This document shows, in pieces, positions 34,850-39,819 of a stretch of 64,000 bases of DNA. Position 1 is the first letter of the stretch; the number at the start of each line of letters is the position of its first letter. This stretch comes from Rhodobacteraceae bacterium F11138 (GTDB lineage Bacteria > Pseudomonadota > Alphaproteobacteria > Rhodobacterales > Rhodobacteraceae). The stretch covers positions 1 to 64,000 of the forward strand of contig JAEKDP010000010.1 in the NCBI GenBank assembly GCA_016521575.1, given 5' to 3'. Position numbers and translations under genes: made by a program. Below the pieces are notes generated by a model. That model searched no databases and was not told the DNA's origin. It saw only the letters and a program-made list of their open reading frames with translations.

Positions 34850-36943
34850 ATGCCAGACCTGCTGATAGAACTGTTTTCCGAGGAAATCCCCGCCCGGATG
34901 CAGGGCCGTGCCGCCGAGGATCTGAAAAAGCGCATGACCGACGGGCTGGTCGAAGCCGGGCTGACATACGCCAGCGCCGCCGCATTTTCGACTCCGCGCC
35001 GCCTGACTCTGACCGTGCAGGGGCTGCTGGCGCGTTCGCCGGACCAACGGGAAGAACGCAAAGGGCCGCGTGCGGATGCGCCCGAAAAGGCAATCGACGG
35101 GTTCCTGCGCGGTGCCGGCGTTGCCCGTGATCAGCTGGAAACCCGCGACACGCCCAAGGGGCCGGTTCTGTTCGCGCTGATCGAGCGGCCCGGCCGCCCC
35201 GCGGCCGAGATCATTGCCGAGGTGCTGGAAACCACGATCCGCAATTTTCCCTGGCCAAAATCCATGCGCTGGGGGGCGGGCAACCTGCGCTGGGTGCGTC
35301 CTTTGCACTCTATTCTGTGCCTGTTGTCGGATACGGATGGCAATCAGGTCGTGCCGCTGGATCTGGACGGGATCATCGCCGGAAACACCACGCGGGGCCA
35401 CCGGTTCATGGCGCCGGATGCGTTCGCCGTCAGTTCTTTCGAGGATTACGAGACCAAGCTCAAACGCGCCCATGTGGTGCTGAACGCGGGCGAGCGGGCC
35501 GATCATATATGGGCGGATGCGACGAACCAGGCCTTTGCCGCCGGGCTTGAGGTGGTGCCGGATCAGGGGCTTCTGGCCGAAGTCGCCGGGCTGGTCGAGT
35601 GGCCCGTGGTGCTGCTAGGCACGATTGATGCGCAGTTCCTGGATCTGCCGCCCGAGGTGCTGCAAACCTCGATGCGCGAGCACCAGAAGTTCTTTTCCGT
35701 GCGCGATCCGAAAACCGGGCGCATCACGCGTTTCATCACCGTCGCCAACCGCGAAACGGCAGACAATGGCGCGACCATTCTTGCGGGCAATCAAAAGGTG
35801 CTGTCGGCACGTCTGGCGGATGCCAAGTTCTTCTGGGACAACGACCTGCGGGTGGCGACATCCGACAGGAATTTGACCGCCTGGACCGGGGCGCTGAAGA
35901 ACGTGACCTTCCACAACAAGCTGGGCAGCCAGGACGACCGCACCCGCCGCATTGCCGCGCTGGCCCGCGAATTGGCCCCGGCGGTGGGGGCCGACGCGGA
36001 TCAGGCGGAACTAGCTGCAGGGTTGGCCAAGGCCGATCTGTCCAGCGAAATGGTCTATGAATTCCCCGAGTTGCAGGGGCTGATGGGCCGCTACTATATC
36101 CAGGCCGCTGGCCATCCCGCAGAAATCGCCGCCGTGGCGCAGGAACACTATTCGCCGCTCGGCCCCTCGGATGACGTGCCCACCGCGCCGCTTTCGGTCG
36201 CCGTGGCGCTGGCCGACAAGCTTGACACGTTGACCGGGTTCTGGGCCATCGACGAGAAGCCCACCGGGTCAAAAGACCCCTTCGCCCTGCGCCGCGCGGC
36301 ACTGGGGGTGATCCGGTTGATGCTTGAGAATGGCCTCAGAATCGAACTGCGGTCGATTTGTCATCATGCTGGCAATGCACACCCCGCGCCAGACGGTAAA
36401 GACGGCAGGGAAACAGCCGACGACCTGCTTGCCTTCATCCACGACCGCCTCAAGGTCTATCTGCGCGATCAGGGCATTCGCCATGACATTATCGATGCCT
36501 GCATCGCGATGCCCGGCAATGACGATCTGTCCCTGCTGGTCAATCGCGCCCGTGCGCTGAACGACGTGTTGGCGACCGAGGATGGCGAGAACCTGTTGCA
36601 GGGCTTCAAGCGCGCCAACAACATCCTGACTCAGGCCGAGGACAAGGACGGGGTCGAATATTCCTTTGGTGCGGATGTGAAATTTGCCGAGGATGACAGC
36701 GAAAAGGCCCTGTTTGCGGCGCTGGACGCGGCTAAGGCGAAAATCGACCCGGCCCTCGCCGCGCAGGATTTCCCGACCGCGATGGCCGCGATGGCCGGTT
36801 TGCGTGCGCCGATCGACGCGTTTTTCGAAAATGTTCAGGTCAACACCGACAACCAGACCCTGCGCCGCAACCGGTTGAACCTGCTCAGCCAGATCCGCCA
36901 GATTTGTGTTTCGGTCGCCGACCTGACCCGGGTTGAGGGGTGA
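34850..36943 (+). CDS. glyS: Glycyl-tRNA synthetase beta subunit
   Basis: GlyS is the beta subunit that binds and positions tRNA-Gly. The 697-aa protein shows the family signatures LLIELFSEEIPARMQGRAAE at the N-terminus, FPWPKSMRWG, TRGHRFMAP, SMREHQKFFSVRD, and FFWDNDLRV. A C-terminal DALR-type anticodon-binding region ends it (LLVNRARALNDVLATEDGEN, TDNQTLRRNRLNLLSQI). Length is normal. It is the last gene of the glyQ cluster; a tandem palindromic repeat begins 4 bp after the stop codon. Confidence 0.97.
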   Translation: MPDLLIELFSEEIPARMQGRAAEDLKKRMTDGLVEAGLTYASAAAFSTPRRLTLTVQGLLARSPDQREERKGPRADAPEKAIDGFLRGAGVARDQLETRDTPKGPVLFALIERPGRPAAEIIAEVLETTIRNFPWPKSMRWGAGNLRWVRPLHSILCLLSDTDGNQVVPLDLDGIIAGNTTRGHRFMAPDAFAVSSFEDYETKLKRAHVVLNAGERADHIWADATNQAFAAGLEVVPDQGLLAEVAGLVEWPVVLLGTIDAQFLDLPPEVLQTSMREHQKFFSVRDPKTGRITRFITVANRETADNGATILAGNQKVLSARLADAKFFWDNDLRVATSDRNLTAWTGALKNVTFHNKLGSQDDRTRRIAALARELAPAVGADADQAELAAGLAKADLSSEMVYEFPELQGLMGRYYIQAAGHPAEIAAVAQEHYSPLGPSDDVPTAPLSVAVALADKLDTLTGFWAIDEKPTGSKDPFALRRAALGVIRLMLENGLRIELRSICHHAGNAHPAPDGKDGRETADDLLAFIHDRLKVYLRDQGIRHDIIDACIAMPGNDDLSLLVNRARALNDVLATEDGENLLQGFKRANNILTQAEDKDGVEYSFGADVKFAEDDSEKALFAALDAAKAKIDPALAAQDFPTAMAAMAGLRAPIDAFFENVQVNTDNQTLRRNRLNLLSQIRQICVSVADLTRVEG

Positions 36944-36946
36944 GCA

Positions 36947-37137
36947 GGCTTCCCGGAAACTGTCCAGTGGACAGTTTCGCCTGCGAACGAACGTAGTTCA
37001 TAAAGGCTTCCCGGAAACTGTCCAGTGGACAGTTTCGCCTGCGAACGAACGTAGTTCATAAAGGCTTCCCGGAAACTGTCCAGTGGACAGTTTCGCCTGC
37101 GAACGAACGTAGTTCATAAAGGCTTCCCGGAAACTGT
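36947..37137. repeat. Tandem array of a 58-bp unit with internal palindrome (3.3 copies)
   Basis: Three identical 58-bp units start at 36947, 37005 and 37063, and a fourth stops after 17 bp at 37137. Every full unit contains a perfect 21-bp palindrome, arms AAACTGTCCA and TGGACAGTTT around a G, and a conserved GTAGTTCATAAA end. There are no unique spacers. The array lies between glyS and the PPDK gene and could terminate or attenuate transcription or be a protein-binding site. The motif TTCCCGGAAAC recurs once more at about 37158. Confidence 0.97.
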
Positions 37138-37275
37138 GCGGTTCACGGGTGCGCTGGATTTCCCGGAAACAACCCCGGATATGTGCAAGCTTTTTCTTGC
37201 GTCGGCATGGCTTGGGCCTATGCTGCAATGCCAGAACCTTGACGCCGCAGCGCAGAAACTCAACGCGGAAATCCA

Positions 37276-39819
37276 GTGCAGAACGACCCGAACACCACGC
37301 TGATCACCCCTTCGGCCCCGATTGCGGCCCATACCCATGGCGGGCGGGCGAAATGCCTGCAGCGGTTGGTGCGGCTGGACATGCCGGTGCCGCCCACGGT
37401 GGCCCTGTCCTTTGACGCGGTGCATCGGCTGACCGAGGGCGAATTGCCCGACATCACGGCCATTGTAAGCGCATTCCCCAAGGATGCGTTGTTATGTGTG
37501 CGCCCGTCGTCGGAAGATCCGGATTGGGGCGGGCCGGGCGCTGTGTTGAACATCGGCATGAATGCCGCGCGTCACGCGGATTTCAGCGCCTCGCTGGGCG
37601 AGGCTGCCGCCGCGTCGCTGTATCTGCGGTTCGTGCAGGCCTATGCCATCCATGTGGCCCGGCTGGACCCGGATCTGTTCGACGATGTGGCCGAAGATCC
37701 GGCGCTGGGGTTGATCGAGACCTTGCAGGCCTATGAGACGGAAACCGATGAGCCGTTTCCCCAGGATCCGCAGGAGCAACTGGGCGGCGTGCTGCGTTCG
37801 ATGGCGCGCGCCTGGGAGGGCACCTCGGCCCGTCTGTTGCGCCAGGCAAAGGGCGCGCCGACGGATGCGGGCCTGGGGCTGGTCGTCCAGGAGATGATCC
37901 CGGGGCTGGGCCAGGGCGAGTGCGGCTCGGGCGTGTTGCAGCTGGTGAATTCGGCCACCGGCCAGCCGCAGATCACCGGGCGGTATCTGAGCCAGAGCCA
38001 GGGCCGCGATGCGATGCGCGCGGGGGCGGCGGCACTGTATCTGGAACGCGATGCCCGTGGTCCTTCGCTGGAAGAGGTGGCACCCGAAGCCTTTGCCGCG
38101 CTCAAGAGCCACGCGGCGTTGATGCGCAAGCGTCTGCGCGCCGAAATGCAGGTGGAATTCGTGATCGAGAACGGTCATGTGCATATTCTGGACGGGGTCC
38201 GCGTCGCCCGCAGCAGCCGCGCGGCGGTGCGGATCGCGGTTCAACTGGCCCGCGATGGCATCATTACACCTCAAGAAGCGGTGATGAGGGTCGATCCACA
38301 CGCCCTGACGGAACTGCTGCACCGGCAGGTGGCGCCGGATGCCGTGCGCGACGTGCTGGCACGCGGCATCGCGGCCAGCCCGGGGGCGGCCAGCGGGCGT
38401 ATCGTGTTCACCTCGGCCGAAGCCCAGGCGGCGGCGTCGCGGCGCGAGCCCTGCATTCTCGTGCGCCGGGAAACCTCGCCCGAAGATATCCGCGGAATGC
38501 ATGCGGCGGCGGGGGTGCTGACGGAACGCGGCGGCATCACCAGCCACGCGGCGGTGATCGGACGTGGTTTGGGGTTGCCCTGCATCGTCGGGGCATCGAC
38601 GCTCAAGTTCAGCAAGGGCAAGAAACAGCTGACGGCGCCGGATGGGCGTGTGTTTCGTGACGGCGATGTGATTACCATCGACGGCAGCACCGGTCAGGTT
38701 CTGGCCGGCGAGCCGGAGATGCTCGAGGCGGCGCTGGATGATGCGTTCCAGGAGCTGATGGGCTGGGCGGACGAAGCGCGCGATATCGGCATTCGTGCCA
38801 ATGCCGACAGCCCGGCGGATGCGCAGACGGCGGCCAATTTCGACGCCCAGGGAATCGGGCTGTGCCGCACCGAGCACATGTTCTTTGACCCCGGGCGCAT
38901 GACCGTGATGCGCGAAATGATCTTTGCCCAGACCTCGTCGGGGCGGGCGGCGGCATTGGAACGGCTGTTGCCGATGCAGCGCGAAGATTTCACGCAGCTG
39001 TTCCGGATCATGCAGGGCAAACCGGTCTGCATCCGTCTGTTCGACCCGCCCTTGCACGAATTCCTGCCCGCCACGCGCACCGGACAGAGAGAGCTGGCCG
39101 AAGCCCTGGATCTGCCGGTCAGCGATGTGGTGCGCCGGATCGAGGCGATGGAGGAATACAACCCCATGCTGGGCCTGCGCGGCGTGCGCCTGGGGGTAAC
39201 CATCCCCGAGATCTACGACATGCAGGCGCGGGCGATCTTCGAGGCGACATTGGCGGCCAGCCAGGATGGCGACCCGGTCGTGCCGGAAATCATGATCCCG
39301 CTGGTGTCCGCGCGGCGCGAGGTCGAACTGGTAAAGGCGCGCATCGATGCGGTGGCCGCCGCCGTGCAGGCAGAACAGAAACGCGCGTTCGATTTCCGCC
39401 TGGGGGTCATGGTTGAAACCCCGCGGGCCTGTCTGCGCGCGGCCGAGTTTTCGCCCTATACGTCCTTTCTGAGTTTCGGCACCAACGATCTGACCCAGAT
39501 GGCCTATGGCCTGTCGCGTGACGATGCGGGCCGCTTCATGTCCGACTACGTGAACCAGGGGGTGTTTCCGGAGGATCCGTTTCACGTTCTGGACACGGAC
39601 GGGGTGGGCGAACTGGTCAATCTGGGGGCAGAGCGCGGGCGTGCCAGCAATCCGGGAATCACCTTGTCGATCTGCGGCGAACATGGCGGTAACCCCGAAT
39701 CAATCGCCTTTTGCAGGGCTGCGGGGTTCGACTATGTGTCCTGTTCGCCGTTCCGGGTTCCTGTGGCGCGACTAGCTGCCGCACAACTGGCAATCGGACA
39801 CAGGATATGCGATTCTTGA
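37276..39819 (+). CDS. Pyruvate, phosphate dikinase-like protein (divergent ATP-binding half)
   Basis: The C-terminal half is clearly PPDK/PEP-utilising. The phosphohistidine loop is GGITSHAAVIGRGLGLPC (H424), then GIGLCRTEHMFF, PMLGLRGVRLGVTIPEIYDM, SFGTNDLTQMAYGLSRDDAG and the catalytic Cys in SICGEHGGNP (about C800). The N-terminal ATP-grasp half is unusual: the MPGMMDT block is replaced by PDWGGPGAVLNIGM, and the FTRNPATG block by LQLVNSATGQPQITG. At 847 aa it is somewhat short. It may be true PPDK or a paralogue with another phosphoryl donor. The start is GTG at 37276. Confidence 0.85.
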   Translation: MQNDPNTTLITPSAPIAAHTHGGRAKCLQRLVRLDMPVPPTVALSFDAVHRLTEGELPDITAIVSAFPKDALLCVRPSSEDPDWGGPGAVLNIGMNAARHADFSASLGEAAAASLYLRFVQAYAIHVARLDPDLFDDVAEDPALGLIETLQAYETETDEPFPQDPQEQLGGVLRSMARAWEGTSARLLRQAKGAPTDAGLGLVVQEMIPGLGQGECGSGVLQLVNSATGQPQITGRYLSQSQGRDAMRAGAAALYLERDARGPSLEEVAPEAFAALKSHAALMRKRLRAEMQVEFVIENGHVHILDGVRVARSSRAAVRIAVQLARDGIITPQEAVMRVDPHALTELLHRQVAPDAVRDVLARGIAASPGAASGRIVFTSAEAQAAASRREPCILVRRETSPEDIRGMHAAAGVLTERGGITSHAAVIGRGLGLPCIVGASTLKFSKGKKQLTAPDGRVFRDGDVITIDGSTGQVLAGEPEMLEAALDDAFQELMGWADEARDIGIRANADSPADAQTAANFDAQGIGLCRTEHMFFDPGRMTVMREMIFAQTSSGRAAALERLLPMQREDFTQLFRIMQGKPVCIRLFDPPLHEFLPATRTGQRELAEALDLPVSDVVRRIEAMEEYNPMLGLRGVRLGVTIPEIYDMQARAIFEATLAASQDGDPVVPEIMIPLVSARREVELVKARIDAVAAAVQAEQKRAFDFRLGVMVETPRACLRAAEFSPYTSFLSFGTNDLTQMAYGLSRDDAGRFMSDYVNQGVFPEDPFHVLDTDGVGELVNLGAERGRASNPGITLSICGEHGGNPESIAFCRAAGFDYVSCSPFRVPVARLAAAQLAIGHRICDS

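Follow-up and report, generated by a model that had tools for sequence, protein, structure and literature searches.

A hairpin-forming palindrome repeated behind glyS of a Rhodobacteraceae bacterium probably belongs to a family of non-autonomous mobile elements

Among described repeats, those closest to the sequence reported here are the GTAG and CGTC REPs, the RPEs, the ends of IS200/IS605 elements together with TnpA-REP, and the palindromic amphipathic repeat coding sequence (PARCEL). According to the accessible part of the source, CGTC REPs are defined by a CGTC tag, a stem of 8-9 bp that starts with A-T, a loop of 4-5 nt and a CCA tail, and they are also without a known transposase (PMC3733652). 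GTAG and CGTC REPs are described there as short imperfect palindromes with a conserved foot tetranucleotide, which are found mostly downstream of coding regions and in some cases inside genes; all of these properties recur in the family analysed here (PMC3733652). RPEs are, in the accessible text, palindromes that occur in intergenic DNA and are also fused in frame inside protein genes, which is a further likeness (PMC2229807). At the ends of IS200/IS605 elements and in TnpA-REP, a single-strand hairpin is accompanied by a tetranucleotide that interacts with a flanking target tetranucleotide; this arrangement may have its counterpart here, and the interaction of guide and target is reported in the accessible part to be partly non-canonical (PMC6006769). 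The fourth system shares with the present family palindromic repeats in coding sequence and a horizontal distribution, but is a coding repeat, unlike the present family; this comparison is one of descriptions only, taken from the accessible text (PMC2996958). The titles and abstract openings of the literature matches listed contained no description of the present element family.

Downstream of glyS, the window (the whole stretch of 64,000 bp that was analysed) contains a tandem array at 36946-37137. In agreement with a preliminary description of this DNA, it consists of three 100% identical units with a period of 58 bp plus 18 bp of a fourth; the units start at 36946, 37004 and 37062, and the last fragment spans 37120-37137. 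The units are contiguous and without spacers, and the array is indeed not a CRISPR. The stop codon TGA of glyS is located at 36941-36943 and the first unit starts 3 bp later, not 4 bp as had been stated. The palindrome AAACTGTCCAGTGGACAGTTT, with its 10-bp arms and central G, is found without mismatch at 36957, 37015 and 37073, compared to 0 matches in 100 dinucleotide shuffles of the window. The perfect 21-bp palindrome described earlier was thus found three times, but its arms are longer than had been recognized: The P3 stem contains an extra outer G-C pair (GAAACTGTCC/GGACAGTTTC), and in copy 1 a further outer helix GCAGGC/GCCTGC follows beyond it. The proposed genome-wide search for the unit was carried out; at up to two mismatches, no copies of the 21-mer were detected outside the array in the 4.48-Mb assembly (28 contigs), and the covariance model R2 introduced below found no copies besides the array in this genome (G000). 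The 11-mer TTCCCGGAAAC of the unit occurs a fifth time beyond the array, possibly as a decayed remnant. The product of the gene downstream of the array is presumably pyruvate phosphate dikinase-like. A promoter-like stretch (TTGCGTC...TATGCT) precedes this gene at 37190-37230, outside the array; judged by eye it is apparently conserved in relatives, and the promoter scan did not report it. The features are compiled in Table 1.

Table 1. Positions of the array, its structural parts and the neighbouring genes in the window.
Feature	Position	Strand	Basis
glyS, glycyl-tRNA synthetase beta subunit	34850..36943	+	ORF; Pfam PF02092, E 9.1e-187
GTGA foot before copy 1	36940..36943	+	sequence; family logo GGG-GTGA; contains glyS TGA
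copy 1, sole complete one	36944..37003	+	R1/R2 match, folding, family covariation
copy 1 P1	36944-36949/36979-36984	+	
copy 1 P3, AGT loop	36956-36965/36969-36978	+	
copy 1 GAAC	36985-36988	+	
copy 1 P4 GAAC-GTA-GTTC	36989-36999	+	
copy 1 right end ATAA	37000-37003	+	
copy 2, identical 58-bp unit, ATAA ahead instead of GTGAGC	37004..37061	+	
copy 3, identical 58-bp unit, ATAA ahead	37062..37119	+	
partial fourth unit, breaks off within 5' arm of P3	37120..37137	+	
TTCCCGGAAAC	37160..37170	+	11-mer recurrence
PEP-utilising enzyme family gene, co-directional, downstream	37276..39819	+	ORF; Pfam PF02896, PF00391

The 21-mer was present with up to two mismatches in 43 of 394 genomes of the window's family, and its reversed pattern in 0. 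A first covariance model (R1) was built from 8 copies by means of a structural alignment with uniform P1 length; it matched 18 of 25 family genomes compared to 1 of 16 genomes of other families. With a second model (R2), made from 68 matches, 29 of 41 family genomes were matched; they contain 1-9 copies each, or 27 in the case of G019. Note that both models were made from family copies, and their matches therefore lean to the structure of those copies. Copy 1 of the window was matched at 36937-37005 with 60 bits by R1 and 73.7 bits by R2. Matches of at least 50 bits in named records include Rhodobacter, Shimia, Ruegeria, Tritonibacter, Aliiroseovarius and Primorskyibacter; on the basis of these records, we infer that the element family is one of Rhodobacteraceae in the wide sense. 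Matches of 46-50 bits were obtained outside this family in the Clostridiales MAG RUG14706 (L130, L135) and in a Rhizobium MAG (L165), and the full structure is therefore perhaps not confined to Rhodobacteraceae; transfer, contamination of the MAGs or a wider distribution could explain these matches. In G019, 18 near-identical module copies were read, most of them within a longer dispersed repeat (L296, L299, L301-L315) that contains the element module and may be a larger mobile unit. Two subtypes alternate in L078 (2100-2584, G001), which has five diverged copies about 100 bp apart; the sequences of these copies differ and their structure is kept.

The family layout is GTGA foot, P1, an optional P2, P3 (a 10-bp hairpin), P1', GAAC and P4, and the element comprises about 42-75 bp in Rhodobacterales. 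The aligned flanks agree in many copies (GGGGTGAG - P1 - TCTTGG or P2 hairpin - P3 - P1' - GAAC - P4). As judged by eye, P3 has a 10-bp stem, commonly with G-A-A-A-C, and a 3-nt loop, and is without a CCA tail; some copies have CGTC ahead of it. Paired substitutions are frequent among the mismatches to the 21-mer, for example AAACCGTCC...GGACGGTTT and AAACAGTCC...GGACTGTTT. Covariation was determined from 91 distinct copies, which are the 99 matches from 75 selected loci minus 8 identical rows. In this alignment, which was fitted to the covariance model and is biased toward its pairing, 94.3% of the cells form a pair compared to 69.3% in shuffles, and 390 double changes were observed compared to 103.8. 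When the partners were slid by 1-3 columns, 27-50% were paired. Strong covariation was found in all four helices. In P4, the window differs from the usual GGGC-GGA-GCCC of the family by two pairs that are changed on both sides. The foot logo of the 91 copies has G 0.80, T 0.75, G 0.79 and A 0.71. Its positions 1-2 covary with the AC of GAAC, and the two G-A mismatches between GTGA and GAAC are mostly conserved. The GTGA in front of copy 1 is proposed to be the insertion target and the partner of GAAC.

The state of the glyS site was compared between genomes. glyS was present in 106 of 110 family genomes, and the best 30 of these 106 loci, including that of the window, were examined. In 29 of 29 other genomes among these best-scoring loci, no model match was found at the site; most of these glyS genes end with GAR-GGN-stop. 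Within the same genus, G002 contains one copy at glyS, and G001, G003 and G004 contain none; the site is also empty in G009 and G047. One copy each occurs at the same glyS stop in G392 and G323. The copy of G392 is 93% identical to that of the window over 44 bp, and the copy of G002 84%. This order of identities does not fit simple descent; since the G392 copy is nearer to the window's copy than that of G002, separate insertions, also in G000 and G002, are possible.

Other copies indicate how the element is placed. In 22 of the 91 copies, a same-strand ORF of at least 120 codons ends exactly at the TGA or TAA of the foot, compared to a mean of 0.25 and a maximum of 2 at other offsets. Where the foot holds a stop triplet, an ORF ends there in 22 of 56 cases. 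For GTGA/GTAA anywhere in the loci, the value is 145 of 2196, with the elements' own feet and overlapping loci included. The closest control, neighbouring stop triplets, ends ORFs in 55 of 379 cases and weakens the coupling to stop codons. Furthermore, several copies apparently follow the same gene in different genomes, and the 22 cases are therefore not all independent. By eye, the genes upstream of copies presumably include asd, frr, carB and rlmE.

Intragenic copies were compared by alignment with relatives that are located on named plasmids and are without the palindrome. The IS3 transposase gene of L116 contains one clean insertion of 42 bp with respect to two relatives. The gap at the insert is 44 minus 2 in L033 (IS630), 42 in two pieces in L145 (IS5-type) and 46 minus 4 in L018, and 43-bp inserts in poorer alignments were seen in L031 and L166. 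A recount in a fixed window gave 42 for L116 with both relatives, 37 for L033, 41 for L145, and 43 for L018, L031 and L166; the values for L033, L145 and L018 are read as including gaps away from the insert. Inspection by eye indicated that the reading frame is kept in L116, L033, L145 and L018, which are in-frame palindrome insertions in protein genes as known from RPEs, and shifted in L031, L035 and L166. No target duplication was seen by eye in L116, L033 and L145. About 9 bp of the empty site are without counterpart in the occupied sites of L033 and L145. The empty site of L116 is without GTGA; there the GTGA belongs to the insert, contrary to what is expected of a simple insertion after a pre-existing GTGA.

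These placements bear on the possibility that the unit is a cis-acting RNA of the glyS 3' UTR, i.e. a terminator, attenuator or 3'-end protector, that was amplified because more hairpins help. Such a role would agree with the sense orientation of the array directly at the glyS stop, with the position of other copies directly after ORF stops, and with the very stable RNA fold of the unit (-28 kcal/mol, z -5.4). However, copies lie within transposase genes, where four keep the reading frame by eye, and in 29 of 29 other genomes among the best-scoring loci the element is missing from glyS. The terminator scan, moreover, found no terminator-like site within the array and two downstream of it, at 37389 and 37468. 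An intrinsic terminator was thus rejected, and the transcription attenuation considered in the preliminary description is not supported, given the same scan and the copies inside open reading frames. In a search with Rfam 15 at gathering scores, 20 family loci gave 0 matches and no Rfam family covered the element; for the window at 36500-37600, the only match was RF02604 with 14.7 bits against a cut-off of 137. RNA helices normally accept G-U pairs. Across the family copies, G-U accounts for 21 of 1770 pairs (1.2%), compared to 6 of 92 pairs in four tRNAs of the fetched loci, which are a small control. Given the normal tolerance of RNA helices, this near absence suggests that pairing is kept at the DNA level, that is, that the hairpin is a DNA rather than an RNA structure. 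An RNA function of the array is therefore unlikely.

A cluster of putative double-stranded DNA sites for a dimeric protein would explain the perfect dyad at fixed spacing and the strict Watson-Crick palindrome. We consider such a cluster very unlikely, since the P3 stem differs over much of its length between loci while pairing is maintained, unlike a base-specific site, since P1, the foot and P4 outside P3 covary too, and since G000 contains a single locus. The type III toxin-antitoxin repeats were dismissed as well because the adjacent gene is not a toxin.

Nine homogeneous arrays (window, L021, L022, L079, L080, L081, L149, L347, L349) were inspected by eye. In all nine, the first copy is preceded by GTGA and the internal copies are without it; in eight of them NNAA is found at the internal position or within a few bases. 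L349 has the internal junction GCAT, one further junction of L079 is GGGA, and in L149 the second copy is truncated. Among the mixed clusters, L095 and L351 contain copies with a GTGA of their own, L350 has CCAA, and L078, L280 and L348 vary; L034, L039, L082-L084 and L086 are further clusters outside this classification. If insertion had recurred at a single GTGA, this tetranucleotide would be left before the first copy only; slippage at the hairpin base could have the same effect. The partial last copies of the window, L080, L021 and L149 favour slippage. The identical units in the window, together with the one copy in G002 and none in G001, G003 and G004, fit the recent amplification suggested earlier, and the array is probably a recent local amplification of one insertion. 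That the copy number is an artefact of the draft assembly with its 28 contigs is highly improbable, as arrays with periods of 61-74 bp occur in other assemblies and the array of the window has just 192 bp. A local slippage repeat that arose around a palindrome formed by chance and belongs to no family would have identical units and a non-integer copy number, but is contradicted by the homologous structured copies in many genomes and their covariation and can practically be dismissed; slippage may account for the amplification step and not for the unit.

The Y1/RAYT transposase (PF01797) is absent from G000 and was found in 15 of 149 family genomes. An R2 match lies near one place among 30 Y1 loci, L271/L276 of G019, beside a degenerate IS200. 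With no linkage across G000, the 149 family genomes and the 30 Y1 loci, a RAYT/Y1 partner was rejected. These counts and the low copy number per genome speak against a mobile element. Membership in the GTAG REPs was excluded because the foot of the 91-copy logo is GTGA and not GT[AG]G and because no Y1 gene flanked by repeats was found; as seen by eye, stem, loop and missing CCA tail exclude the CGTC REPs. Compared to the REPs in the accessible description, the present family is distinguished by GTGA opposite GAAC, a 10-bp stem with a 3-nt loop, a second helix and P4, by few copies per genome, and by head-to-tail arrays in place of the mainly head-head dimers of CGTC elements (PMC3733652). RPEs have 105-146 bp and are Rickettsia-specific, in contrast to the shorter elements of Rhodobacterales, and the aligned intragenic copies of the present family are in transposase genes, unlike those of RPEs; the two were compared by description only, from the accessible text (PMC2229807). 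The candidate guide GAAC follows the hairpin on its 3' side, in contrast to the 5' guides that the accessible part reports for IS200/IS605, and no Y1 transposase is linked to the family (PMC6006769).

The copies have a common structure, are dispersed, have occupied and empty sites, and reside in unrelated genes. We therefore regard the unit as a probable mobile palindrome that is non-autonomous, forms a hairpin, belongs to a Rhodobacterales-wide family and works in the manner of REPs, RPEs and IS200/IS605 ends; of the roles suggested in the preliminary description, that of a mobile palindromic element has the best support, namely the dispersed family, the empty and occupied sites and the copies in transposase genes. 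The element would move as single-stranded DNA folded into the hairpin, would be cut in trans by a putative enzyme, and would be joined beside tetranucleotides similar to GTGA, which would pair with the GAAC of the hairpin foot. Such targeting would explain why copies are placed at GGGTGA stop codons, where they do the host the least harm. We infer that a single insertion, common to G000 and G002, landed on the glyS stop. In the lineage of G000, P1-P3-P4 would then have been amplified head to tail to 3.3 copies, either through further insertions at one and the same GTGA or through replication slippage promoted by the hairpin. A mobile palindrome of this kind needs no host function for the array.

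The hairpin has a wider distribution. At least 120 stretches of GTDB genomes contain the exact pattern GAAAC-N-GTCC-NGN-GGAC-N-GTTTC; among the matches, of which 80 loci were listed, are Clostridia, Adlercreutzia, Streptococcus and Bdellovibrionales, and the flanks are mostly of another kind. It is present in 19 of 2.9 million viral contigs, compared to 0, 0 and 0 for three stem-permuted controls. An origin of the array from a plasmid or phage was rejected; in the plasmid search, the array had no match at E 0.01. The hairpins outside Rhodobacterales are possible homologues of P3 of the family. In the Clostridia-type loci L103, L106, L125, L131, L150 and L154, a tRNA or tmRNA gene is followed by the hairpin at a distance of about 80-100 bp. 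In L103 (4539-6034, Ruminococcaceae MAG), a tRNA gene (Ser by eye) is followed by a 306-aa ORF between two 138-bp copies, 93% identical, that have the same hairpin; each copy ends with a repeat of the sequence of the tRNA 3' end. This looks like a tRNA-anchored gene cassette. The Clostridia form in L108, L131, L154, L170 and L175 has, by eye, a P2 hairpin (CCAAATC...GATTTGG) that adjoins the same P3 and resembles the P1/P2/P3 junction of Rhodobacterales copies. It is conceivable, albeit doubtful, that one single-strand DNA enzyme other than RAYT spreads palindromes of this pattern across several phyla. In Rhodobacterales, with a tetranucleotide foot against GAAC, mostly conserved tandem G-A mismatches and partners that change together, the element could then reprogram its choice of target.

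The probably mobile palindrome of the glyS locus represents a new family of a known kind, REP/RPE-like, with an unusual anatomy. For annotation, it follows that gene ends and odd in-frame insertions in transposase genes can stem from the element. For the question of how short palindromes without an enzyme of their own, such as CGTC REPs and RPEs, are spread, the present family provides a clean test with its defined structure, its empty and occupied sites, its inserts of about 42 bp in some genes and its covarying foot partners.
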